Shown: piece after piece, positions 757 to 59,119 of the stretch
Numbering within the stretch: position 1 is the stretch's first letter
Layout: every line of letters starts with the position of its first letter
Assembly: GCF_011393335.1 (NCBI RefSeq)
Contig: NZ_CP049865.1
Coordinates: 2,994,722-3,058,721 of the forward strand
Reading direction: 5' to 3'
Source of the DNA: Propioniciclava coleopterorum
Lineage (GTDB): Bacteria; Actinomycetota; Actinomycetes; Propionibacteriales; Propionibacteriaceae
Length of the DNA stretch: 64,000 bases
Notes under the pieces: model-generated
Databases searched by the model: none
What the model was told of the DNA's origin: nothing
What the model saw: the letters and a program-made list of their open reading frames with translations, nothing else
Program-made: the position numbers and the translations under genes

Positions 757-2064
757 TCAGTCGTTGTCCTCGTAGACGTCCGGGATGCCGTCGGCGTCGG
801 CGTCCACGGCGTCGGCGCGCGCGATGGCGGCGTAGCGCCGGTTGCGCGGGATCAGCACGGCGGACGCCGCGAGCGCGGCCAGCAGCGAGGCCAGCAGGAC
901 GCCGACCTTGGCGGCGTCGTTGAGCGGACTGCCCAGCCCGAAGCTGAGCTCGCCGACCAGCAGCGAGACGGTGAACCCGATCCCGGCCAGCAACCCGACG
1001 CCGATCAGGTCGATCCAGCGCACGGCGTCGTCCAGGGTCGCGCGGGTGAAACGCGTGAGGGCCCACGTGGCCGACACGATCCCCAGCGGCTTGCCCAGAA
1101 CGAGCCCGACGATGATGCCCAGGGCCACCGGGGAGGTGGCTGCCGAGACGAGCCCGTCCCAGCCGCCGACGGCGACGCCGGCGGAGAAGAAGGCGAACAC
1201 GGGCACGGCGATGCCGGTGGACAGCGGGCGGTAGCGGTGCTCGAACACGGTCGTGAGGCCGCGGGTGGCGCCGCGCGCGACGCGGGCCGGGACCACCAGG
1301 CCCAGCACCACGCCCGCGATGGTGGCGTGGATCCCCGAGGCGTGCAGCAGGCCCCAGGCGGCGAGGCCCAGCGGCAGCAGGAACACCCAGGCGGCCCAGG
1401 CGTGCCGCTCGAAGAACGCCGGGAACCGCTGGACGCAGAACGCGTACACCGCTGCGGGCACCACGAACAGCGCCAGCGCGAGGAAGTCGATGTCGCCGGA
1501 GTAGAACACGGCGATGATGAGGATGGCGATCAGGTCGTCCACGACGGCCAGGGTGAGCAGGAAGAGCCGCAGCGCGCTGGGCAGGTGTGTGCCGATGATG
1601 GCGAGCACCGCCACCGCGAACGCGATGTCGGTGGCCGCCGGGATCGCCCAGCCCTGCAGGCCCTCGGGGGAGCCGAGGTTGACCAGCGTGAACAGCAGCG
1701 CCGGCACCGCGACGCCGGCGGCGGCCGCCACGACAGGGACCATCGCCTTGGAGGGGTCGCGCAGGTCGCCGGCGACGAGTTCGTTCTTGAGTTCGAGCCC
1801 GACCAGGAAGAAGAACACGGCCAGCAGTCCGTCGGCGGCCCACGCGCCCAGGCTGAGGTTCAGGTGGAGCGCCTCGGGCCCCACCGTCAGGTCGCGCAGC
1901 CCGAAGTAGCTGCCGGCGGCGGGCGAGTTCGCCCAGATGAGGGCGATGACGGCCGCCGCGATCAGCAGCATCCCGCCGGTCGTCTCGCGGCGGAGGATCT
2001 CGCCGACGCGCAGCGTCTCGGCGTAGCTGGAGCGGCTGAAGAAGGGGCGGCGGGGGGATGCCAT
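757..2064 (-). CDS. nhaA: Na+/H+ antiporter NhaA
   Basis: The 435-residue polytopic membrane protein exchanges sodium for protons across the plasma membrane for pH and salt homeostasis. It shows the NhaA hallmarks: [20 protein letters not shown] near residues 77-96, PAATDIAFA near 142-150, and the ion-binding aspartate pair in [10 protein letters not shown] (D176 and D177), equivalent to Asp163/Asp164 of the E. coli protein. About twelve hydrophobic segments are visible. The frame stays open far upstream, but the start at 2064 is preceded by GAGAGG at a six-base spacing and begins the family-like sequence. The last 18 residues are acidic and include DADADGIPD, which resembles a calcium-binding DxDxDG loop. 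The gene is divergent from the ydeI-like gene across a 90-base gap. Confidence 0.95.
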
Positions 2065-2154
2065 GAGCGGCCTCTCGGAGTCGTCGGTCGGGGACTTCGC
2101 CGACCAGACTTCCCGGCACACCGTTGAATACTTTACTGCAACCGCCGTGGCAGG

Positions 2155-2814
2155 ATGACCACCATGTCCCCTCGCGACGGCGGTACCCCCGAGCGTCCAG
2201 CCGTGTTCTTCGACGGCCCCGAGGAGTTCCGCGCCTGGCTGGAGGAGCACCACGACACCGCGCCGGAGCTGTGGATGGGGCTCTCCAAGGCGCACGTGCG
2301 GCCACGCGGTCTCACCTGGGATCAGGCGGTGCCCGAGGCCCTGTGCTTCGGCTGGATCGACTCGCTGTCGCAGCGGATCGACGACGACAGCCGCCGCCAG
2401 CGCTGGACGCCGCGGCGTCCGGGCAGCAACTGGAGCCTGGTGAACGTCGCGCACGTGGAGCGACTGATCGCGGAGGGGCGGATGACGCCCGCCGGGCTCG
2501 CCGCGTTCGAGGCCCGCCAGGCCGGACGCACGGGCGTCTACAGCTTCGAGGTGCCACCCGGCGAGCTCACCGAGGCGGACGCCGCCGCGCTGGACGCCGT
2601 CCCGGCCGCCCGCGCCTGGTGGGACCGCGCCCCGGCGTCCTACCGACGGCTCGTGACGAGCTGGCTGGCCGGGGCCAAGCGTCCCCAGACGCGGGAGCGC
2701 CGCCTGGCCCAACTCGTGGAGGACAGCGCGGCCGGTCGGCTGATCCCGCCGCAGCGCTACGGCGACGAGCCCGCCTGGGTGCGGCGGCTGCGGGCCGAGC
2801 TGGGCCTGGACTGA
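2155..2814 (+). CDS. YdeI/OmpD-associated family protein
   Basis: The product has 219 residues (216 if translation starts at the second ATG, 2164). It matches the YdeI/OmpD-associated family through [16 protein letters not shown], the central [19 protein letters not shown], and [11 protein letters not shown]. The carboxy-terminal part contains a [22 protein letters not shown] segment typical of the family's helical tail. The function of this family is poorly known; some members are linked to resistance or stress by context only. AGGA at 2152-2155 sits well for the ATG at 2164, so the shorter form may be the true one. The gene stands alone, divergent from nhaA and 192 bases ahead of the arginine operon. 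Confidence 0.85.
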
Positions 2815-2971
2815 CCCGGTAACCGGACGGATTCCCGGGATCCTGCGGCCGGGCGGCGTCATGGTGCGCGATCCTCGCGTTACGGGCCGTGCCGACGCAA
2901 CCATTCGGCGTCATGGGCGGCGAACCGCGGCGCGGACGACGGCGAGGTCCCCGCGCGGGCGACAACCCGGG

Positions 2972-3007
2972 TGGCATTTTTATTCCGATGACTGCATACT
3001 CATGCTA
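2972..3007 (+). promoter_or_regulatory. Tandem ARG boxes overlapping the argC promoter
   Basis: Two imperfect palindromes with the ARG-box layout lie directly upstream of argC. The distal one spans 2972-2987 (TGGCAT-TTTT-ATTCCG) and the proximal one 2992-3007 (CTGCAT-ACTC-ATGCTA, with TGCAT mirrored by ATGCT). Their centres are 20 bases apart, close to the 21-base spacing of paired ArgR sites in E. coli. The proximal box contains the -10 candidate CATACT at 2995-3000, which ends six bases before the argC ATG. No Shine-Dalgarno sequence is present, so argC is probably leaderless, and ArgR bound here would cover the -10 and start site. Confidence 0.7.
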
Positions 3008-4038
3008 TGACGATCAAGATCGCAGTCGCGGGCTGCACCGGCTACGCGGGCGGTGAGCTGCTGCGCCTCCTGGCCACCCGGGACGACGTGGAGATCGGCG
3101 CGTTGACCGCCAAGACCTCGGCCGGCACCAAGCTCGGCCAGCACCACCAGCACCTGACGACCCTGCTGGACCGCGACGTCCTCGACACCACGCCCGCCAA
3201 CCTCGCCGGTCACGACGTGGTCTTCCTGGCCCTCCCGCACGGGGCGTCGGCCGAGGTGGCCGCCTCGCTGGGCGAGGACGTCCTGGTCATCGACTCCGGC
3301 GCCGACTTCCGGCTCGAGTCCGCGCAGGACTGGGCCGCCTTCTACGGCACCGAGCACGCGGGCACGTGGCCCTACGGCCTGCCCGAGCTGCCCGGGCAGC
3401 GCGAGCGGTTGGCCGGGAGCCGCCGCATCGCCGTGCCGGGCTGCTTCCCGACCACGATCACGCTCGCGCTGGCGCCCGCCGTCTCCGCCGGCATCGTCGA
3501 CGGCCACGACGTGGTCGCCGTCGCGCCGACCGGCCCCTCGGGCGCGGGCAAGTCGCTCAAGCCGCACCTGCTCGGCGCGGAGCTGATGGGGTCGGCGTCC
3601 GCCTACGGCGTGGGGGGCGTCCACCGGCACGTCCCGGAGATCCTGCAGAACCTGCGCAAGCTCGGCGCCGCCGCGCCGACCCTGTCCTTCACGCCGGTGC
3701 TCGTGCCGATGAGCCGGGGGATCCTGGCCACCGTCTCCGCGCCGCTGTCGGGCCCCACGACGGTGCAGCAGGTCCGGGACGCCTACGCGTCCGCCTGGGC
3801 CGACGAGCCCTTCGTCACCCTGCTGCCCGAGGGGCTGTGGCCGCAGACCCAGTCCGTGCTGGGCAGCAACTACGTCCACGTCCAGGTGGCGGTCGACGAG
3901 GCCGCGAACCGGCTCGTGGTCGTCGCCGCGCTCGACAACCTCGCCAAGGGCACCGCCGGCGGCGCCATCCAGTCCATGAACATCGCCCTGGGCCTCCCCG
4001 AGACCCAGGGCCTCACCACGATGGGAGTCGCCCCGTGA
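3007..4038 (+). CDS. argC: N-acetyl-gamma-glutamyl-phosphate reductase ArgC
   Basis: ArgC reduces N-acetylglutamyl phosphate to the semialdehyde with NADPH, the third step of arginine synthesis, in the cytoplasm. The 343-residue product has the nucleotide-binding motif [14 protein letters not shown] at residues 9-22, the catalytic cysteine C146 in VPGCFPTT, and the family segments LALPHG and IDSGADFR. The length is typical. The ATG at 3007 places the Rossmann motif at the usual distance, although no ribosome binding site is present, so a leaderless transcript is likely. It is the first gene of argCJBDRH and overlaps argJ by four bases (GTGA). Regulation by the ArgR encoded four genes downstream is expected from the boxes at the promoter. 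Confidence 0.97.
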
Positions 4039-11174: not shown

Positions 11175-16207
<5,033 letters not shown>

Positions 16208-16238
16208 ACCACCAAACAAACGGTGTAGACGGGCAAAA

Positions 16239-16285
16239 ATCTACGATGACTACGCGTCCACTATACGATATCTGAAACAACAACC
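16239..16285 (+). other. 3' arm of the 23S precursor processing stem
   Basis: CGCGTCCACTATACGAT and the following GAAACAACAACC are the reverse complement, with few mismatches, of the spacer sequence at about 13018-13047 (GTTGTTGTTTGAG, then GTATAGTGGACGCG). Together they form the long stem that brackets 23S, an expected RNase III site. Confidence 0.65.
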
Positions 16286-16323
16286 CGAGGCTTCGACCCA
16301 GGCGTTGAGGTTCAGAACGATCC

Positions 16324-16343
16324 CCCACACCCGCGGGTGTGGG
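16324..16343 (+). repeat. Perfect 20-base palindrome between 23S and 5S
   Basis: CCCACACCCG followed directly by its reverse complement CGGGTGTGGG lies 17 bases ahead of 5S. It is probably an RNA processing or spacer hairpin of the rrn transcript, though at least three bases would be unpaired in a real loop. Confidence 0.5.
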
Positions 16344-16360
16344 AAGACAACTCAAGATTG

Positions 16361-16479
16361 TTTCGGTGGTCATAGCGTGAGGGAAACGCCCGGTCCCATT
16401 CCGAACCCGGAAGCTAAGCCTCACAGCGCCGATGGTACTGCACACGGGAGTGTGTGGGAGAGTAGGACGCCGCCGAACA
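16361..16479 (+). rRNA. rrf: 5S ribosomal RNA
   Basis: The gene has the usual size, and TTCGGTGGT pairs with GCCGCCGAA at the two ends. The conserved CCGAACCCGGAAGCTAAG loop and GATGGTACTGCA are present. It closes the 16S-23S-5S operon and is followed by a strong terminator. Confidence 0.95.
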
Positions 16480-36456: not shown

Positions 36457-37647
36457 ATGAGAGTGGTCATCTGCGGCGGGGGCATGGGCGGTCTGGTCCT
36501 GGCGCACGCCCTGGGCGAGCATGCCGACGTGCTCGTCCTGGATCGCGACGCTTCGGCGTCCGACACGGGCGGCTACCGGATCAGCATCGACGACGCGGCG
36601 TGCCGTGCGCTGGGGACGGCGTTGACGCGCTCCCTCCTGGAGGAGGTGCGCGCGACGGCCGACACCGGCGACGCCTACGAGCAGTTCACCATCGCCGACG
36701 CCCGACTTCGCCCGCTGATCGTCGCGCCGCTTCCGCCCCACGAGGACCGCATCCTCGCCCACCGTCCGCAGTTACGGGCGCTGCTGGCCCGCGATCTCGG
36801 GGCCCGCATCCGGTTCGGGTGCCGGGTGGTGTCGGTCACGCAACACCGCAGCATCGCGCGGGTGACGCTGGCCGACGGATCCGAGTTGGACGCGGACCTC
36901 GTGGTCGCCGCGGACGGGGCCGACTCGGTCGCCGCCCGGTCGCTCCCGGGTCGCACCCCCGCGCGTGACCTGGGCCTCGTGGGCGTCGCCGGCTGGGCGC
37001 CGCTGGATGGGGTGCCGCCCGCGTTCCTGTTCTCGGGGCCCGCGCTGGCGTTCGGCGCCGAAGGTCTGGGGGTGTTCCTGTCCCTGTCCCGTGGCCCCGC
37101 TGCGGCGCAGGGGGCGCGTCCCGGGCTGATCTGGGGCACGATCAGCCGCAGCGAAGCGGCCGGGCCTGCACCCGGCATGCCTCCCGAACAGCTCCGGCGC
37201 GCCGCGCTGCGGCTGCTGCGCTCCTGGTCTCCCTGGCTGAACGAGCAGGTCGCCCGTTCCGACCCGGCGCGCACGGCCGCGTTCCGGCTGTGGGCGACCG
37301 ACCCGGGCGGCGACCTCGGCGGGTGGCCACCCGGCCCCGTCGCCGCGCTGGGGGACGCGGTGCACGCCATGCCACCCACCGGCGGCCAGGGCGCCTCCAC
37401 CGCGATCCGCGATGCGGTGGAACTGGCGGCGGCTGTGCGCGAGGGCCGGCGCGGTGCCGATCTCGGCCCCGCGTTGGCGGCCTACCAGCGCTCGGTCGCC
37501 ACCCGCGGCCGGGCGGCGATCCGGGAGTCGCTGGGTCCCGTGCGGGTCCTGCGGGCCTTGGGCCACCGGCCCGCCCAATTGTTGGCCGCGCCGCTGCTTC
37601 GACTGGCGGGCGCCGTGGGGATCCGGCTTCATCCGAATCAGGCCTGA
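36457..37647 (+). CDS. FAD-dependent monooxygenase
   Basis: The 396-residue flavoprotein belongs to the para-hydroxybenzoate-hydroxylase fold. It has the amino-terminal dinucleotide motif VVICGGGMGGLVLAHAL near residues 3-19, the middle DLVVAADGADSVAAR motif near residue 151, and the FAD ribityl-binding ALGDAVHAMPPTGGQGAS near residue 299. Related enzymes hydroxylate aromatic or polyketide substrates with NAD(P)H. The substrate here is unknown, and no pathway genes are adjacent. GGAG lies 14-17 bases before the ATG, so the ribosome binding site is poor. The gene appears to be a single transcription unit between DUF3052 and tRNA-Val. Confidence 0.85.
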   Translation: MRVVICGGGMGGLVLAHALGEHADVLVLDRDASASDTGGYRISIDDAACRALGTALTRSLLEEVRATADTGDAYEQFTIADARLRPLIVAPLPPHEDRILAHRPQLRALLARDLGARIRFGCRVVSVTQHRSIARVTLADGSELDADLVVAADGADSVAARSLPGRTPARDLGLVGVAGWAPLDGVPPAFLFSGPALAFGAEGLGVFLSLSRGPAAAQGARPGLIWGTISRSEAAGPAPGMPPEQLRRAALRLLRSWSPWLNEQVARSDPARTAAFRLWATDPGGDLGGWPPGPVAALGDAVHAMPPTGGQGASTAIRDAVELAAAVREGRRGADLGPALAAYQRSVATRGRAAIRESLGPVRVLRALGHRPAQLLAAPLLRLAGAVGIRLHPNQA

Positions 37648-37920
37648 GCCGCACGGGGAACGTCCCGGGGCCACGCCGGCCGACTCCCGGAGAGCGGCGA
37701 TCCGGACGTCCCGGAGCGAACCGCCGCCGGTCGCCGCGTCACCTGCGACTCCCGTCACGCGCAGACACGGCCGGGACGACCACGCCCGGTAAAGTTCTGG
37801 TACGGTTCGGCGCGCGGCCGGTCGACGTTCGATTCGCCGGGGCAGGGCGGGCAGCGCACGTCCGCCGTCGCGGTGGTGCCAGATCCCGGGCGCTTGGCCG
37901 CAGGCCTTCCCCTCTCGAAG

Positions 37921-37994
37921 GGGCGCATAGCTCAGTTGGTTAGAGCTCCTGCCTTACAAGCAGGCGGTCGGGGGTTCGAGTCCCTCTGCGCCCA
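37921..37994 (+). tRNA. tRNA-Val(TAC)
   Basis: A standard cloverleaf is visible. The acceptor arm is GGGCGCA with TGCGCCC (37987-37993) and discriminator A at 37994. The D-arm is AGCTCAGTTGGTTAGAGCT. The anticodon stem is CCTGC/GCAGG with loop CTTACAA, anticodon TAC at 37955-37957. The T-arm is GGGGGTTCGAGTCCCTC. The CCA end is not encoded. A possible -10 TACGGT with an upstream TG lies at 37801-37806. Confidence 0.95.
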
Positions 37995-38066
37995 CGCCAC
38001 CACCCGGCTGCCGCGCCGCACGCCGACGGCCACCCCCCATCCCCGCGTCCTGTCGTACCCGGCCGA

Positions 38067-38072
38067 TAGGCT
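38067..38072 (+). promoter_or_regulatory. Possible -10 element of the Cys4-module gene
   Basis: TAGGCT lies 18 bases before the GTG at 38091. Unlike the leaderless cases, a ribosome binding site (GGAGGGGG at 38079-38086) fits between. Confidence 0.4.
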
Positions 38073-38090
38073 GCGACCGGAGGGGGAACA

Positions 38091-39854
38091 GTGGAGTTCT
38101 TGGGGGTCGCGATCCTGGCGGTGCTGATGTTCGGGCTGGTGCTCGCGCTCGTGCACGCGGACTCCGCGCGGCCCGAACCGGACGCCGAGGAGCCGGCGCC
38201 GCAGCGTCCGAGCACCGCGTCCCCCACGCCCGCGCCGCCGCAGCGTCCGCGGATGGATCTGACGGCGGTGCTCGAGGGGGCGTTCACGTGCGAGGTGTGC
38301 GGCGAACCGGCCACCATCGCGCTGCGGCAGCCCAGCGGCACGCATCACCCGGCGCTGTGCCAGCGGCCCGCCTGCCAGGATCCTGAGCGCTTCGGCGACC
38401 TCTGGGCGCGGGCCACCGCGCTGGTCCCCATCGGCTGGCCCTACGACGAGGAACTGTGGGATTCCGTGCCCTGGGTGCAGGCGGAGGACGCCCTGGTGGG
38501 CGAGCACTTCTGCACGTTCTGCGCCGCACCCGCCACGCTCGCGCTGAGGCGGCCCTTCGACGTGTACTTCCCGCTGGTGTGCGACAGCCCGGCGTGCCGC
38601 GCCATGGACGTGCTGCGCCCGTACCTGGCGTCGCCCATCGTGGCACTGAGCCCTGTCGTGGCCACGCGCGAGCGTGTCACGCCCTCCCCGTCGGTGCCCG
38701 AGACGGCGGAGAACTGCACGGTGTGCGGCGAGCCGGCCACCGTCGTGATGCCCCGACCGGGGGAGTCGGCGCTGGGGGTGTGCGACGCGTCGGCGTGCCG
38801 CCGCGCCGTGGGGGACCTGTGGACCGACGCCGCCTTCTGGGTCACTCCCCCCGAAGAGGGCGATCTCCCCGAGCGCGGCCTGCTGTGCTCCCGCTGCGGC
38901 GGCCAGGCCGTCGGCGCCGAGTGGACCACCGGGGCGTCGCGTCCCCGGATGTGGTGCGCCGACCCGGCGTGCGGTGGCGCCCAGCGACCGGCGTCGCGCG
39001 ACGGGCGGGAGGCGCTCAGTTACCACCTGGATCGCCCCGAGTCCATGCTCCCGCCGCACCTGGACGCCTGCCTCCTCTGCGGGGAGCCGACCGCGTACTT
39101 CCTCATGGTGCCCGGCGAATGGGTCGCCCGCGGCGTGTGTCACTCCGCCAACTGCGTGTACATCGCCCACGCCCGGTCGTGGTGGCTCGACCCCTCCCAC
39201 AAGGAGGGCCCCTACGGCCGGCCGGAGGTCGGCTACTTCTGCATGGTCTGCGGCCGGTCCGCCGACCTGGAGATGCGGCAGCGGGACGGTGGCGTCCAGG
39301 CGGTGTGCGATGACCCGGCGTGCCAGCAGCATCCCGCGGTGCGCTACCACTGGGCACGTGCCCAGTGGGTCGCCCGCCTCGAGCCGTCCGAGCCGGGACG
39401 TCGCTGCTGCGTCTGCGAGGCACCGGCGACGGCCGGCCTGGGTCAGATCGGCGGCGTCACCGTCGACGTGTGCGAGGCGCGGGAGTGCCGTGATCGCGCC
39501 GTGGATCAGTCCTGGAACCCCGACGTGCCGCGCCCCCCACGCCCGCCCCTGGTGCCGCTGGTGGCTCAGTTCCTGCCGCGGGAGCCCGCCGCGCGGTGCG
39601 ACACCTGCGAGGCCTGTCCGGCGGAGCTGTGGTACACCCACACGGGGGACGGCGAGGTTCAGCGCACGACGATGTGCCACGACTGCTTCGAGGACAATCA
39701 GGAGGGGTGGGACGGAGCGGTCAGCCGTGGGTTCTTCCTCCTGCTCGGGCAGGTCCACCCGAGGCAACGCGTCTGGCGCGCCCGCAGCGCCTCCTCGACG
39801 CCACCAGACGACTTGACCCTGACCCAGGGTCAAGGTTCGACACTGGTTACGTGA
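38091..39854 (+). CDS. Membrane-anchored protein with eight tandem Cys4 (zinc-ribbon-like) modules
   Basis: I do not recognise this 587-residue protein. Residues 4-21 form one hydrophobic segment with no clear cleavage site, so it is probably anchored by its amino terminus. A Pro/Ala-rich linker follows to about residue 55. Seven modules then obey C-x2-C-x(18-19)-C-x4-C, with first cysteines at 67, 141, 209, 266, 327, 384 and 439. Several read CxxCGEPAT at the first pair and VCDxxACR at the second. An eighth, variant module has cysteines 503, 506, 529 and 532. The paired cysteines suggest zinc binding, but this is inferred. The start is GTG 38091 with GGAGGGGG upstream. The last codons overlap the promoter of the MFS gene. 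Family and function are unknown. Confidence 0.85.
   Translation: MEFLGVAILAVLMFGLVLALVHADSARPEPDAEEPAPQRPSTASPTPAPPQRPRMDLTAVLEGAFTCEVCGEPATIALRQPSGTHHPALCQRPACQDPERFGDLWARATALVPIGWPYDEELWDSVPWVQAEDALVGEHFCTFCAAPATLALRRPFDVYFPLVCDSPACRAMDVLRPYLASPIVALSPVVATRERVTPSPSVPETAENCTVCGEPATVVMPRPGESALGVCDASACRRAVGDLWTDAAFWVTPPEEGDLPERGLLCSRCGGQAVGAEWTTGASRPRMWCADPACGGAQRPASRDGREALSYHLDRPESMLPPHLDACLLCGEPTAYFLMVPGEWVARGVCHSANCVYIAHARSWWLDPSHKEGPYGRPEVGYFCMVCGRSADLEMRQRDGGVQAVCDDPACQQHPAVRYHWARAQWVARLEPSEPGRRCCVCEAPATAGLGQIGGVTVDVCEARECRDRAVDQSWNPDVPRPPRPPLVPLVAQFLPREPAARCDTCEACPAELWYTHTGDGEVQRTTMCHDCFEDNQEGWDGAVSRGFFLLLGQVHPRQRVWRARSASSTPPDDLTLTQGQGSTLVT
39812..39850 (+). promoter_or_regulatory. MerR-type operator and leaderless promoter of the MFS gene
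   Basis: A perfect inverted repeat with ten-base arms (CTTGACCCTG at 39812-39821 and CAGGGTCAAG at 39825-39834) and a three-base centre lies just after the -35 hexamer TTGACC (39813-39818). The -10 candidate GACACT (39839-39844) gives a 20-base spacer. Such a long spacer with the dyad inside it is the hallmark of MerR-regulated promoters. The -10 ends six bases before the GTG at 39851, so the transcript is probably leaderless. The site lies within the coding end of the upstream gene. Confidence 0.7.
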
Positions 39855-41083
39855 CCTCGAAGACGACCCTTCCCCTGTACCTGATCGCCACCGGCACGTC
39901 GTTGTTCGGCAACGCGTCCATCTCGATCGTGCTGCCGTGGCTGGTGCTCCAGCGCACCGGCGACCCGGCCGTCGCCGGCCTGGTCGCGGCCGTCAGCGCG
40001 CTGCCCGCCGCGATCGCCGCCTTTGCGGGCGGCCACCTGGTCGACCGGGTCGGACGCCGCCGGATGACTGTCATCGCCGACATCGGGTCCGCGGTCGCGG
40101 TCGCCTCGCTGGCGCTGGTGGACGCCGCCGTGGGCCTCGACGTCGGCTGGTTCATCCTCCTCGGCGTCCTGGGCGCCCTGTTCGACGTGCCCGGGATGAC
40201 CGCGCGTGAGACCCTGCTCGCCAACGTGTCCCAGACCTCCGGCACGAGCCTGGACCGGATCGCGTCGCTGCGCGGGGCCCTGTTCGGCCTGTCCTTCCTG
40301 GCGGGGCCCGCGCTGGCGGGCTGGCTGCTGGCGGTGTTCCCCGCGATCACCGTCGTGTGGATCACCGCGGCCTGCTCCGCGATCGCCGCCCTCGCGGTCG
40401 CGGTGATGCCGCTCGACCCGACGCCGCCGGCCGAGCACGCCGACCCCTCGCCGCTCGCCGGCTGGACCCACATCCGCCGCAACAGCGCCCTGTTGGCGCT
40501 GCTGACCGTGAGCCTGGCGTCCATGGTGATCGTCGGGCCGCTGCTGAGCATCGTCCTGCCCGCGCACTTCACGGCGCTGGCGGCCCCCGGGCTGCTCGGC
40601 CTCACGCTGTCGGCCTACGCGGTGGGCACCATCGCGGGCTCCGGCCTGTACGGCTGGCTCTTCGACGGACGCCGCTGGGCCGCCTGGGTGACCGCCAACG
40701 CGCTGTACACGGTCGGGGGCCTGCTCATCGGGACGCTGGCCGGGGTGTGGCCGGTCGCGCTCGGTATGGTCGCGGCCGGGATCGGCTCGGGACTGATGCA
40801 GCCCATCACCACGGTCGTGCTGACCGAGCAGGTGCCCGACGCCCTGCGCGGCCGGGTCTTCGGCACGTACGCCGCCCTGCAGATGGCGGTGGCGCCGCTG
40901 GGGCTCGGCGCAATGGCCGCGCTCCTCGGTGCCACGAGCCTGGGCGTCGGCGCCTGGGCCCTGGCCGGCGGCTGGGTGCTGCTCGCCGCCTGGTCCGTCG
41001 CGCTGCCCGGGCTGCGCGACTACATTCGGGGCGGGAGCGGAGCGCGGGAGGAGGCCCATGCTGACGATCGGCCGGCTGGCTGA
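39851..41083 (+). CDS. MFS transporter, drug-efflux type
   Basis: The 410-residue membrane protein has about twelve hydrophobic segments and the MFS signature GGHLVDRVGRRRMTVIAD in the loop after segment 2. It resembles DHA1/DHA3-type exporters such as macrolide or multidrug efflux proteins (GMTARETLLANVSQTSGTSL is typical of that group). The substrate is unknown. It starts at GTG 39851 directly behind a MerR-type promoter and overlaps the merR-family gene by 26 bases. An inducible efflux pair is the natural reading. Confidence 0.88.
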   Translation: MTSKTTLPLYLIATGTSLFGNASISIVLPWLVLQRTGDPAVAGLVAAVSALPAAIAAFAGGHLVDRVGRRRMTVIADIGSAVAVASLALVDAAVGLDVGWFILLGVLGALFDVPGMTARETLLANVSQTSGTSLDRIASLRGALFGLSFLAGPALAGWLLAVFPAITVVWITAACSAIAALAVAVMPLDPTPPAEHADPSPLAGWTHIRRNSALLALLTVSLASMVIVGPLLSIVLPAHFTALAAPGLLGLTLSAYAVGTIAGSGLYGWLFDGRRWAAWVTANALYTVGGLLIGTLAGVWPVALGMVAAGIGSGLMQPITTVVLTEQVPDALRGRVFGTYAALQMAVAPLGLGAMAALLGATSLGVGAWALAGGWVLLAAWSVALPGLRDYIRGGSGAREEAHADDRPAG

Positions 41084-41816
41084 CTACGTCGGGGTCACGC
41101 CGCGCGCCATCCGGCTCTACCATCAGCGCGGGCTGCTGCCCGAGCCCGAGCGGACCGCGTCCGGCTACCGCGTCTACACCGCGCAGGACGTCATCGACCT
41201 GCAGCGCATCAAGGTGCTCACCGACGCCGGCGTCCCGCTGGCCCGCGTCCGGGACCTGCTGCACGCCTCGCAGGCAGACGTGGCCGCCGCCGTGGCCGAG
41301 GTGGACGCCGACCTGCGCCGCCGGATCGCCGACCTGCGCCGGACGCGCGGCGCGCTCGCGACGCTGGCCCAGGGGGAACCGTTCCTGCCCGCGTCGGTGG
41401 CGGCGCTGCACGCCGGGCTGCGGGCCATCGGGGTCTCGGAGGCGACGCTGCTGCGCGAGCGGGACAACTGGGTGCTCATCCACGTGCTGTACCCGGAACT
41501 GGTCGACCAGTGGCTGGGGACGCAGGTCGCGATGCTGGAGGACCCGGAGTTCCGCGACCTCTACCTGCTCACCGACGAGGCGTTCGGCTGGGAGCCCGAC
41601 GACCCGCGCCTGGAGGAGATCGCGCGGCGCACCGTCGCGTGGATGGTCACCCAGACCCCGCCCGACACCGAGGGCTGGGACACCGATCCGGTCGCCTACC
41701 AGCTCGTCACCACCTACCGCAGCGACGTCTCGCCGGCGTGGGACGCCCTGATGACGCGGACGCGCGAGCTCGCCCTCGAGGCGGGCTACGTCGAGCCCGG
41801 CTCCGGGCCCGGCTGA
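41058..41816 (+). CDS. MerR family transcriptional regulator
   Basis: The 252-residue regulator has the MerR winged helix at residues 1-70 (LTIGRLADYVGVTPRAIRLY, then GLLPEPERTASGYRVYT), a dimerisation helix, and a carboxy-terminal effector domain of about 140 residues. It has no cysteine, so it is not a thiolate metal sensor and more likely senses an organic ligand. GGAGGAGG lies six bases before the ATG inside the MFS gene. It probably controls the operator at 39812-39834. Its 3' end overlaps the convergent kdpE by 31 bases. Confidence 0.9.
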   Translation: MLTIGRLADYVGVTPRAIRLYHQRGLLPEPERTASGYRVYTAQDVIDLQRIKVLTDAGVPLARVRDLLHASQADVAAAVAEVDADLRRRIADLRRTRGALATLAQGEPFLPASVAALHAGLRAIGVSEATLLRERDNWVLIHVLYPELVDQWLGTQVAMLEDPEFRDLYLLTDEAFGWEPDDPRLEEIARRTVAWMVTQTPPDTEGWDTDPVAYQLVTTYRSDVSPAWDALMTRTRELALEAGYVEPGSGPG

Positions 41817-54356: not shown

Positions 54357-56303
54357 ATGCTCCACGACCCGAGACGAGCCCACCCCCGCGCCCGCTCCCG
54401 GCGCCGTCGCGTCGGCCTCGCCACCGCCCTCGGGGCGCTGCTCACCGTCGCCCTGTGGTGGCTCGGCCCGGCCAGCGCGGTGGCCGCCGACGACTCCTTC
54501 GACCGGTGGGACGTCCGCTACACCGTGACCCACGACGGCACCCTGCAGGTCCGCGAAACCATCACCCTGCGGTTCGGCAGTTCCTCGGGGCGCCACGGCC
54601 TGGACCGCTTCCTGGTGACGCGCGAGCCGTACGACGACCGACAGGACATCCGCTACCCGGTGTCCGCCGTCACCGTCGACAGCCCCGACCGCGGGATCTC
54701 CACGAAGGTCGACCGATCCAGCTACTCGCCCGCCGCCCGCGAGGAGGTCGAGCGCATCCGGATCGGCAGCGCCTCCCGCACCATCCTGGCCGACACCGCG
54801 ACGTACGTCATCGACTACAGCGTCCGCGGGGCGCTCCGGGTCGGGGCCGACGAGCGTCCGGAGCTCTACTGGGACGTGACGGGACCCGACATCGCCGGCA
54901 TCGACGAGATCACCGTCCGCGTGCAGGCCCCGGGCGGGGTCTGGGACACGGCGTGCAGCGTGGCGCCCGACGGCGAGAGTGCCCCCTGCGACAGCGAGGC
55001 GCTGGACGGCGAGGACGCGGTCTTCCGGCACGCCGACGTGCCGCGCGGTCACATCATGACGATCGCGGCGCAGTTCCAGCAGGGCGCCGTGACCGACGCG
55101 CAGCCGCTGCTCGTGGAGCGGGCGGACGCCGGCGAGATCCTCGCCCGCACGCTCGGCATCGCCGGCGCCGGCGCTGCCCTGGTGGGGATCCCGCTCATCG
55201 GATGGATCGTCGTGCGGACGCGGACCGGCGACGACCGCTACCTCGACGTCCCCCCGGGCGTCGTGCCTGTGCCCGGCCAGTCCGACCGGGTCGGCCGGAG
55301 CCGGGCGGCCGTGGAGGTGCCCGTCGCGTTCTCGCCGCCGCGCAACGTGCTGATCTCCGACGCGGGGTTCCTGCTCGACGGTCGCTACGACGTCCGGCAC
55401 CTGACGGCCACCCTCGTCGATCTGGCGGTGAAGGGGGCGATCGACCTCACCAGCGGCGGCGGCGACCAGGCGGCCCTCGTCGACCGCGGCCGTGCCACCG
55501 ACGACGCCGGCCGGCGGGTGCTCGACGACGTGTTCCGGTCCGCCCGCACCCGGGTGTCGCTGGGCAGCGCCGAGCAGATGCTGCGCGCCTCGGAGAACCT
55601 CGCGCTCCGGGAGGAGCGCAACGCCCGGAACAACGGCTGGTTCAAGGCCCTGGGGCTTCGGCCGCGCGACTCGACCTTCCCGCCCAAGGCCCTGTGGGTC
55701 GCCGGATGGTTGGTGGTGGTCCTGGTGCTGGCGCCGTCGCTGCGCGGGTTCATCCCGCCCTTGCTGGTGGTGGGCGCGATCGTGGCGGTGTTCGTCATCA
55801 CGGTCCGTCTCGTCCGGGGCAGGCTGCGGTCGGGGCAGCGCACGGCGCACGGGCGGGCCCTGACCGACCAGATCGAGGGGTTCCGCACCTACATCTCCAC
55901 CGCCGAGGCCGACCAGCTGCGCTTCGAGGAGGGCGAGGACATCTTCACCAAGTACCTGCCGTGGGCGATCCTCTTCGGCGAGGCGGACCGCTGGGTGCGG
56001 GTGTGCCGCCGGGCCGTCGAGCTCGGACGCATCCCCGCCCCGACGCTCGGCGGGCTGGGGACGGGCTCCTGGGAGACCGACGGGTTCAGTCGACGCCTCA
56101 ACACGCTGGGTCGCTCCGTGCGGTCCGGCAGCCGCCCGACGCAGGTCCACTCAACCGGGCGCAGCTTCCTCACCAGCAGCGGCGGGTCGGGCGGGGGATC
56201 GGCGTTCCGCAGCAGGGGCGGCGGGGGCGGCGGCCGCCGCAGCGGGGGCGGATCCTCCCGGTCCGGCGGCGGCGGCGGAGGCGGGGGAGCGAGCAGCTGG
56301 TGA
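54357..56303 (+). CDS. DUF2207 membrane protein, copy 1
   Basis: The 648-residue protein has an amino-terminal membrane or signal segment (about residues 20-45), an extracytoplasmic DUF2207 domain ([20 protein letters not shown] and [17 protein letters not shown]), a membrane segment near 265-288, a cytoplasmic region, a hydrophobic pair near 445-490, and a glycine-rich tail of poly-Gly ending SSW. The [25 protein letters not shown] segment is a family hallmark. Function is unknown. It is paralogous to the gene at 56883, and smpB lies between them. GGAAAGGA lies about nine bases before the ATG. Confidence 0.85.
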
Positions 56304-56882: not shown

Positions 56883-58729
56883 ATGGCGCGCCGGTTCGCC
56901 GCGCTGCTCGCCGCGCTGGCCCTCGTCCTCATCGGGGCGCTCGCCGCGCCGCCCCGCGCGTTCGCAGCGTCCGACAGCTACGACAGCTTCGACGCCGTCT
57001 ACAACGTCACGCCCGAGGGGCTGCTGGAGGTGCGCGAGACCTGGGTGCTGCGCTTCGGCTCCAACTCCGGGCGGCACGGCTTCGACCGCCACCTGGTGAC
57101 CCGGGAGCCCTACGGCACCACCGACCAGGACCAGGTGTACGAGATCGACAACGTGTCGGTGTCCAGCCCCGACCCCGTCTCCACGCAGACCGCCATCACG
57201 ACCAACGCAGGCTCGACGTCGCGCGAGGAGTCCATCCGCATCCGGATCGGAAGCGGCGACCGCACGATCAGCGCGCCGACCGCCACCTACGTCATCTCCT
57301 ACGACGTCAAGGGCTCGCTGCGCACCGGCGCCGGCGACCACCCGGAGCTCTACTGGGACGCCACCGGCTCGACCATGGACGCGATCGCCCAGGCGACCGT
57401 CCGGACGACGGTCCCCGGCGGCGTCGTGGCGACCCAGTGCTACGCGGGGCCGCCCGGCTCGAGCACGCCATGCACGTCGCAGTCGTTCGAGGGCAACACC
57501 GCCACCTTCACCCAGGGCAGGATCGGGTACGGGTCGCTGCTGACGGTGGCCACCCAGATGAACCCGGGAGCCGTGGCGAACGCCCAGCCGATCCTCGTGG
57601 AGTCGGGCGAGGCGGCCGCGACCCGCACCGGCTACGCCGTCCTGGGCGCCGCCGCGCTGGGGACCGTCGCCATCCCGATCCTGGGCTGGCTGTGGTACCG
57701 GCGCCGCGGGCACGACGAGCGGTACGCGGGCGTGCCGCCCGGCACGGTGCCGCTCAGCGGGCAGGCGTCCCACGTCGTGCGCAACGACCCGCGGATCCCC
57801 GTCCCCGTCTCGTTCGCGCCGCCCAAGCTCCCCATCGCCTACGCGGGCTTCCTCCTGGACGGCCAGTACAAGGTGGAGCACCTCACCGCCACGATCGTCG
57901 GCCTCGCCACCGCGGGGGCGATCAAGCTCGACAGCTCCGACGGCTCGGTCGCCACGCTGATCGACCCGGCCCGCGCCACCACCAAGCCCGGCCAGCTCGT
58001 CCTGGACGACGTCTTCGGCGGCGCGACCAGCGTCGACCTCAGCCGCGCGAGCGAGTTGGCGGGCACGTCCCGCGCGCTGGCGGCCGACGAGGAGGCGGTC
58101 GCGATGAGCAACGGCTGGTTCCGGCGCATCTCCCGCGGCCGCAAGTCCATGGCGAGCTTCGGACTGATCTGGGTGGTCGCGTGGATCGCGATCTCGACCG
58201 GCGCCCTGGCGTCGATGATCTTCTGGGTGCTGATGCCGATGACCGCCGCCCTGGTGATCACCCTGGCCATCGTCCGGTCGAAGATGGCCAAGGGCCAGCG
58301 GACGGCCGTCGGGCGCGCCTGGACCGACCAGGTGGAGGGGTTCCGCACCTACATCGCCACGGCGGAGGCCGACCAGCTCAAGTTCGAGGAGGGCGAGGAC
58401 ATCTTCAGCAAGTACCTGCCCTGGGCGGTGCTGTTCGGGCTCGCCGACCGCTGGGTGCGGGTGTGCGAACAGGCGATCGCGCTGGGGCGGATCCCCGTCC
58501 CGACCGGCTACTGGTACGGCGGCGGCTGGAACCCCAACCTCATCCTGTGGAACCTCAACAGCCTGGGCACAAGCGTGAACACGGGGGCCGCGCCGGCGGT
58601 CTCGTCGGGCCCGAGCTTCTCCAGCGACACCGGGTTCGGCGGCGGGTCGGCGTTCGGGGCGGCGGCAGCTTCGGCGGCGGCGGGTTCTCCGGCGGCGGTG
58701 GCGGAGGCGGCGGCGGGGGCAGCTGGTAG
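56883..58729 (+). CDS. DUF2207 membrane protein, copy 2 (one apparent frameshift)
   Basis: Read through one frameshift, this is a 615-residue paralogue of the gene at 54357. It has a signal or membrane segment (residues 7-28), the DUF2207 domain (YDSFDAVYNVTPEGLLEVRE and NSGRHGFDRHLVTREPYG), the [24 protein letters not shown] hallmark, and hydrophobic segments near 245-265 and 425-455. The frame breaks in GGGG 58656-58659; one extra G continues into a glycine-rich tail ending GGSW at 58727, like copy 1. It starts one base after the smpB stop, so it is coupled to smpB. Confidence 0.85.
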
Positions 58730-58750
58730 CCGCCCCCGCGCAGCGGTGGC

Positions 58751-59119
58751 TCAGGCGACCCCGACGAGGTCGCAGACGAACACGAGCGTCTCGTTGGGCT
58801 TGATGGCGCCGGCGGCGCCGCGCGACCCGTAGCCCAGGTGCGGCGGGATCGTGATGCGCCGGCGTCCGCCGACCTTCATGCCGACGATGCCCTGGTCCCA
58901 GCCGTGGATGACCTGACCGGCGCCGAGGTTGAACACGAGTGCCTGGCCGCGGTCGTAGCTGTTGTCGAACTCGGCGCCGTCGGACCACGCCACGCCGACG
59001 TAGTCGACGGCGACCTGCTTGCCGGGGACCGCCTCGGGTCCCGTGCCGACCGTGAGGTCCTCCAGGATCAGTTCGGCGGGCGGGTTGGTGTCAGGGATGT
59101 CTACCGTGGGCTTATCCAT
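58751..59119 (-). CDS. FKBP-type peptidyl-prolyl isomerase
   Basis: The 122-residue cytoplasmic isomerase has the FKBP core: VAVDYVGVAWSDGAEFDNSYDRG, FNLGAGQVIHGWDQGIVGMKVGGRR, and the terminal IPPHLGYGSRGA and LVFVCDLVGV. No signal peptide is present. It speeds proline isomerisation during folding. It converges on the DUF2207 gene (stops 21 bases apart) and is divergent from the DUF1707 gene. The ATG at 59119 was chosen because family similarity begins shortly after it. Confidence 0.93.
   Translation of the reverse strand: MDKPTVDIPDTNPPAELILEDLTVGTGPEAVPGKQVAVDYVGVAWSDGAEFDNSYDRGQALVFNLGAGQVIHGWDQGIVGMKVGGRRRITIPPHLGYGSRGAAGAIKPNETLVFVCDLVGVA

Follow-up and report, generated by a model that had tools for sequence, protein, structure and literature searches.

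B-box, ZZ and RING domains each bind a pair of zinc ions through about eight ligands. The mononuclear treble clef, as set out in the portion of PMC4999995 available to us, consists of a zinc knuckle, a β-hairpin and an α-helix, the knuckle and the N-terminal region of the helix supplying two ligands each; the zf-FCS motif is given as CX2CX14-30FCSX2C in the available portion of PMC4047054. We describe here a 587-amino-acid protein of Propioniciclava coleopterorum, encoded in a 64,000-nucleotide stretch of contig NZ_CP049865.1 (positions 2,994,722 to 3,058,721; this whole stretch is referred to as the window), which carries seven tandem four-cysteine modules and a variant eighth behind a single hydrophobic segment. 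Its C-x4-C second pair, seven-fold repetition and membrane anchor suggest that a treble-clef-like part is arranged here in a new way.

Judged by the predicted fold of module 3, the modules share with the treble-clef group, as far as that source describes it, the C-x2-C-G knuckle and the order of hairpin and helix; by sequence position, the cysteines that would serve as ligands fall two in the knuckle and two close to the start of the helix. They differ from the group in their last pair, C-x4-C, and in being repeated seven times in tandem after a membrane helix. With the TRASH clan, zf-FCS and MYM-type fingers they have in common, going by the partial zf-FCS account, C-x2-C, a gap of similar length and then a cysteine pair, yet F-C-S-x-x-C is found in none of the seven modules and C-x4-C in all of them. 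Four cysteines per module set them apart from B-box, ZZ and RING domains. The likeness to McsA, a protein-arginine kinase activator, is confined to its N-terminal zinc module, which aligns weakly and with module 8 only.

Tandem cysteine modules and their predicted fold

The pattern C-x2-C-x(18-19)-C-x4-C occurs seven times in the protein, with first cysteines at residues 67, 141, 209, 266, 327, 384 and 439, and is followed by C503-x2-C506-x22-C529-x2-C532; seven regular modules and a variant eighth are what the original prediction had described. Chance composition did not reproduce the array: among 20,000 residue shuffles of the protein, 19,806 had no module, 190 had one, four had two and none had more. 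No other of the 295 stop-to-stop frames of at least 100 amino acids in the window carries this pattern even once. The protein is laid out as follows (GC, guanine plus cytosine).

38091..39854, + strand: gene of the cysteine-module protein, 587 amino acids, GC by codon position 0.73/0.57/0.91
38094..38159, + strand: predicted membrane helix, residues 2-23, from hydropathy and the helix at 2-23 in the full-length model
38160..38267, + strand: Pro-rich linker with an acidic start (residues 24-59), read from the sequence
38289..38375, + strand: module 1, C67-C95 (x19, x4)
38511..38597, + strand: module 2, C141-C169 (x19, x4)
38715..38798, + strand: module 3, C209-C236 (x18, x4), used for the fold prediction
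38886..38972, + strand: module 4, C266-C294 (x19, x4)
39069..39155, + strand: module 5, C327-C355 (x19, x4)
39240..39323, + strand: module 6, C384-C411 (x18, x4)
39405..39488, + strand: module 7, C439-C466 (x18, x4), with extra C440
39597..39686, + strand: module 8, C503-C532 (C-x2-C-x22-C-x2-C), weakly McsA-like, with extra C509

The near-constant spacing claimed earlier holds within the modules (x18-19, x4) but not between them, where starts lie 55-74 residues apart. The repeated wording also needs narrowing, with CxxCGEPAT exact only in modules 1 and 3 and VCDxxACR only in modules 2 and 3; the consensus reads C-x-V-C-G-x-P-A-T...V-C-x-x-P-A-C. Thirty-two of the 34 cysteines lie in modules, C440 and C509 being the extras. 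The seven cores have a mean pairwise identity (21 pairs) of 27% with the cysteines and 20% without them, and all 28 cysteines are kept. In the DNA, modules 1-3 make up a 63-nt repeat family with copies 62% and 76% identical to the reference copy, which does not suggest recent duplication. Trp stands 8-10 residues past the fourth cysteine in six of eight modules, a count reached in none of 20,000 shuffles, for a range picked after the alignment was seen.

The fold of module 3 was predicted with fair confidence (predicted local distance difference test [pLDDT] 79.9, predicted template modeling score 0.60), and its order is that of the treble clef: C8 and C11 in a zinc knuckle, C30 at the end of a β-hairpin and C35 in the first turn of an α-helix (residues 33-42 of the model). 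Fold matches were weak and mostly to zinc-binding domains. The treble-clef core is thus supported by prediction, and on the predicted fold of this one module the modules look like treble-clef zinc fingers. The suggestion of treble-clef zinc modules gains from this model and these matches, while the clustering of the four cysteines around one zinc ion, with the knuckle and the helix N-terminus giving two each, is put forward from their positions in the sequence. Because the cysteines are kept, the core is predicted as a treble clef and the Trp recurs, we picture folded modules that probably each hold one structural zinc ion, with the Trp past the last cysteine probably packing the helix on the hairpin.

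Membrane segment and candidate role

The single membrane segment and Pro-rich linker of the original prediction were both borne out. Hydropathy in a 19-residue window has one peak, starting at residue 3 (mean 2.96), and stays at or below 1.33 past residue 30; the full-length fold model, used for the membrane helix only, places a helix at residues 2-23 (pLDDT 83 for residues 1-10 and 89 for residues 11-20), and the linker takes up residues 24-59. The helix has neither Arg nor Lys in front of it and a single Arg shortly behind it, a charge pattern that weakly favours modules on the cytoplasmic side. Two features weigh against that placement: five acidic residues also follow the helix, and V-H-A after the hydrophobic segment could be a cleavage site.

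The same features, with the Pro-rich stalk and the even number of cysteines (34), would suit an extracytoplasmic repeat protein with two disulfides per module, which might take part in adhesion, say, or relay redox equivalents. A signal peptide usually has a positive residue before its hydrophobic segment, whereas none is present here. The predicted run of C-x2-C-G knuckle, hairpin and helix follows the treble-clef order (PMC4999995, available portion). We consider a disulfide-bonded protein unlikely.

We tentatively favour a membrane scaffold on the cytoplasmic side whose treble-clef-like zinc modules dock protein partners. A single-pass membrane protein would present its modules on a flexible Pro-rich stalk: seven mononuclear ones, each with a C-x2-C-G knuckle, a β-hairpin and a helix whose N-terminus contributes the other two cysteines, together with an eighth of related type. 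Similar modules strung along a stalk would make a multivalent docking arm, most likely one that brings protein partners together on the cytoplasmic face of the membrane.

Sites of this kind could also serve as a metal buffer or store, in which about eight four-cysteine sites at the membrane would bind Zn(II), Cd(II) or Cu(I) exchangeably. The share of cysteines that falls in four-cysteine sites (32 of 34) speaks for such a role, which we nevertheless regard as improbable: the modules are longer than the short clusters of metallothioneins and, unlike them, are predicted to fold, and the scanned neighbours comprise a Kdp system for potassium, a transporter of the MFS type and a MerR regulator of unassigned ligand.

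Nucleic acid had been named among the possible ligands, and the acidity of the protein (isoelectric point 5.03) disfavours it. A zinc-finger chain holding DNA or RNA at the membrane would have precedent in treble clefs that bind nucleic acid (zf-FCS, in the available portion of PMC4047054), and the module profile gave a match to GATA-2, non-significant at E 0.46. With 1 Lys and 49 Arg in 587 residues, and no basic position common to all seven modules in the alignment, this role strikes us as quite improbable, the scarcity of Lys being shared with the neighbouring FAD, MFS and MerR proteins (0 or 1 Lys each).

Searches for families and relatives

The earlier statement that the protein belongs to no named family agrees with the profile searches. 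Neither the whole protein nor single modules matched Pfam or NCBIfam at curated cut-offs, and the whole protein stayed above the threshold of E 0.001 in PHROGs (best E 0.38) and PADLOC (best E 0.31). The best sub-threshold Pfam matches were Zn_ribbon_Nudix (PF14803) with module 4 (20.7 bits against a gathering score of 25.6) and TtuA_LIM_N (PF22082) with module 3 (18.1 bits against 27); Zn_ribbon_Nudix reached E 0.0002-0.0004 with single modules, again below the cut-off. Module 8 aligned with positions 2-38 of the McsA profile NF053706 in NCBIfam (E 0.0026, 17.6 bits against a cut-off of 210) and with the McsA structure 8wtb in the PDB (E 1.4); modules 1-7 had no McsA match at E 1, and no McsA match was found in the protein's own genome. 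Against 21 YHS sequences of the TRASH clan the module profile aligned over five columns (probability 1.7%).

Other matches were set aside. ProRS-C_1 (Pfam, E 0.002) and RecA fusions (PDB, E 8.9e-05) were chance matches to the protein in which no stretch passed by itself; alignments shown for rubredoxin (module profile, best E 0.06) did not reach the second cysteine pair, and collagen IV, the top row for the module profile (E 0.039), covered 10 columns only.

None of our searches, 12 congeners included, yielded a relative. Genome counts below include the protein's own genome, and the family, order, class and phylum samples overlap. The whole protein was matched in two of 198 genomes of the family, four of 394 of the class and one of 396 of the phylum (its own). 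The second match in the family (G046) spans residues 6-54, that is, helix and linker only; the three in the class are also partial, covering residues 270-325 with two stops inside (G665), residues 4-88 at a locus (L068) whose open reading frames of at least 150 amino acids lack such a module (G449), and residues 6-56 (G538). At E 0.001 the module profile was matched in one of 198 genomes of the family (its own) and five of 394 of the class, and at a looser E 0.01 in 29 of 293 of the order. All matches outside the protein's own genome were partial: not one of the 28 other genomes of the order or the four of the class matched all 43 profile columns. Among frames of at least 60 amino acids at the four class loci (L070, L005, L004 and L071), a cysteine motif was seen only at L070, as CEVCGAPA within a 236-amino-acid frame that is HNH-like by eye.

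Among phage and plasmid records nothing matched at E values up to 1, and no second copy was found in the protein's own genome. In collections of contigs of at least 3,000 bases, a first scan matched 10 stretches of genome contigs, none confirmed as a relative, and nothing in viral contigs. A DNA pattern built from modules 3 and 6 found 21 stretches in genome contigs; three of these loci hold one C-x2-C-x(17-20)-C-x4-C each in one frame or another, with no tandem, and the best module-profile match among the loci was partial (columns 18-36, E 0.00055). In viral contigs the pattern found two stretches, with no relative in the 60 nt read on each side. Relatives could be missed because the pattern matches only two of the seven query modules.

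Coding frame and genomic setting

The lack of relatives is what would be expected of a spurious or decaying frame, an explanation that we regard as very improbable. One intact frame of 587 amino acids follows a Shine-Dalgarno sequence, the repeats have diverged with every cysteine kept, and GC by codon position is similar in the neighbouring FAD (0.79/0.59/0.89) and MFS (0.72/0.56/0.96) genes. Three of the four overlapping frames checked, a 633-amino-acid antisense frame and two on the same strand, have their GC peak at another codon position; the fourth (162 amino acids, minus strand, 38441-38929) has 0.58/0.71/0.94.

37921..37995, + strand: tRNA-Val (tac), directly upstream of the cysteine-module gene, left edge of the accessory segment
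38079..38083, + strand: Shine-Dalgarno-like GGAGG, 7 nt before the predicted GTG start, read from the sequence

A scan of 37600-40100 turned up neither a consensus promoter nor a terminator. The MFS start overlaps the stop codon of the cysteine-module gene (GTGA, with the MFS GTG at 39851). As side observations, TTGACC and GACACT with a 20-bp spacer would start a leaderless mRNA at this GTG, and a perfect 9-bp inverted repeat, TTGACCCTG-ACC-CAGGGTCAA (39813-39833), lies inside the last codons of the cysteine-module gene and resembles a MerR-type operator. The MerR gene itself is at 41058-41816.

The cysteine-module gene lies in accessory DNA, since the distance from the tRNA to prfB and the content between them vary among congeners. 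Stretches from 10 of the 12 congeners have the order aceE, DUF3052, tRNA-Val, followed in nine by prfB, which was not found in the tenth stretch (L065). From tRNA end to prfB these nine measure 24-100 bp (five congeners), 1.2, 1.6 and 2.8 kb (one each) and 11.9 kb (L057, congener G123). The distance in the window is likewise 11.9 kb, with the cysteine-module gene, the MFS transporter, the MerR regulator and the Kdp system in between. The L057 insert, at the same tRNA-Val, opens with a 609-amino-acid, minus-strand, serine recombinase-like frame (1631-3460), and no protein of the window segment has a match in it. For the MFS gene, six of the 12 congeners gave matches, all of them distant (25-29% identity). 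No integrase was seen among the scanned proteins of the window segment. Searched with up to three mismatches, the window contains the tRNA 3' end just once, so integration by tRNA recombination is no more than a candidate route.

Elsewhere in the window, an FAD-dependent monooxygenase-like gene (36457-37647) between DUF3052 and the tRNA-Val was not matched by tblastn in any of the ten stretches from congeners, and its protein has a weak PADLOC match. Tandem DUF2207 membrane proteins (54357-56303 and 56883-58832) both match one same place in all seven matching congener stretches. An rRNA operon (16S, 23S and 5S, 11179-16478) accounts for the window's low-GC stretch.

No bacterial protein that joins a long tandem array of treble clefs to a membrane anchor is known to us; a narrow literature search was also empty, which says little. 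The protein may, though this is doubtful, represent an undescribed family: seven to eight treble-clef zinc modules, mononuclear, tethered to the membrane and with C-x4-C as second pair, encoded in accessory DNA next to a tRNA-Val gene and serving as a multivalent docking arm at the membrane. The repeats have diverged far and yet the searches brought up no relative, which suggests a fast-evolving repeat protein or an unsampled pool of accessory genes. If the modules do bind zinc and partners, they would constitute a new bacterial adaptor architecture.
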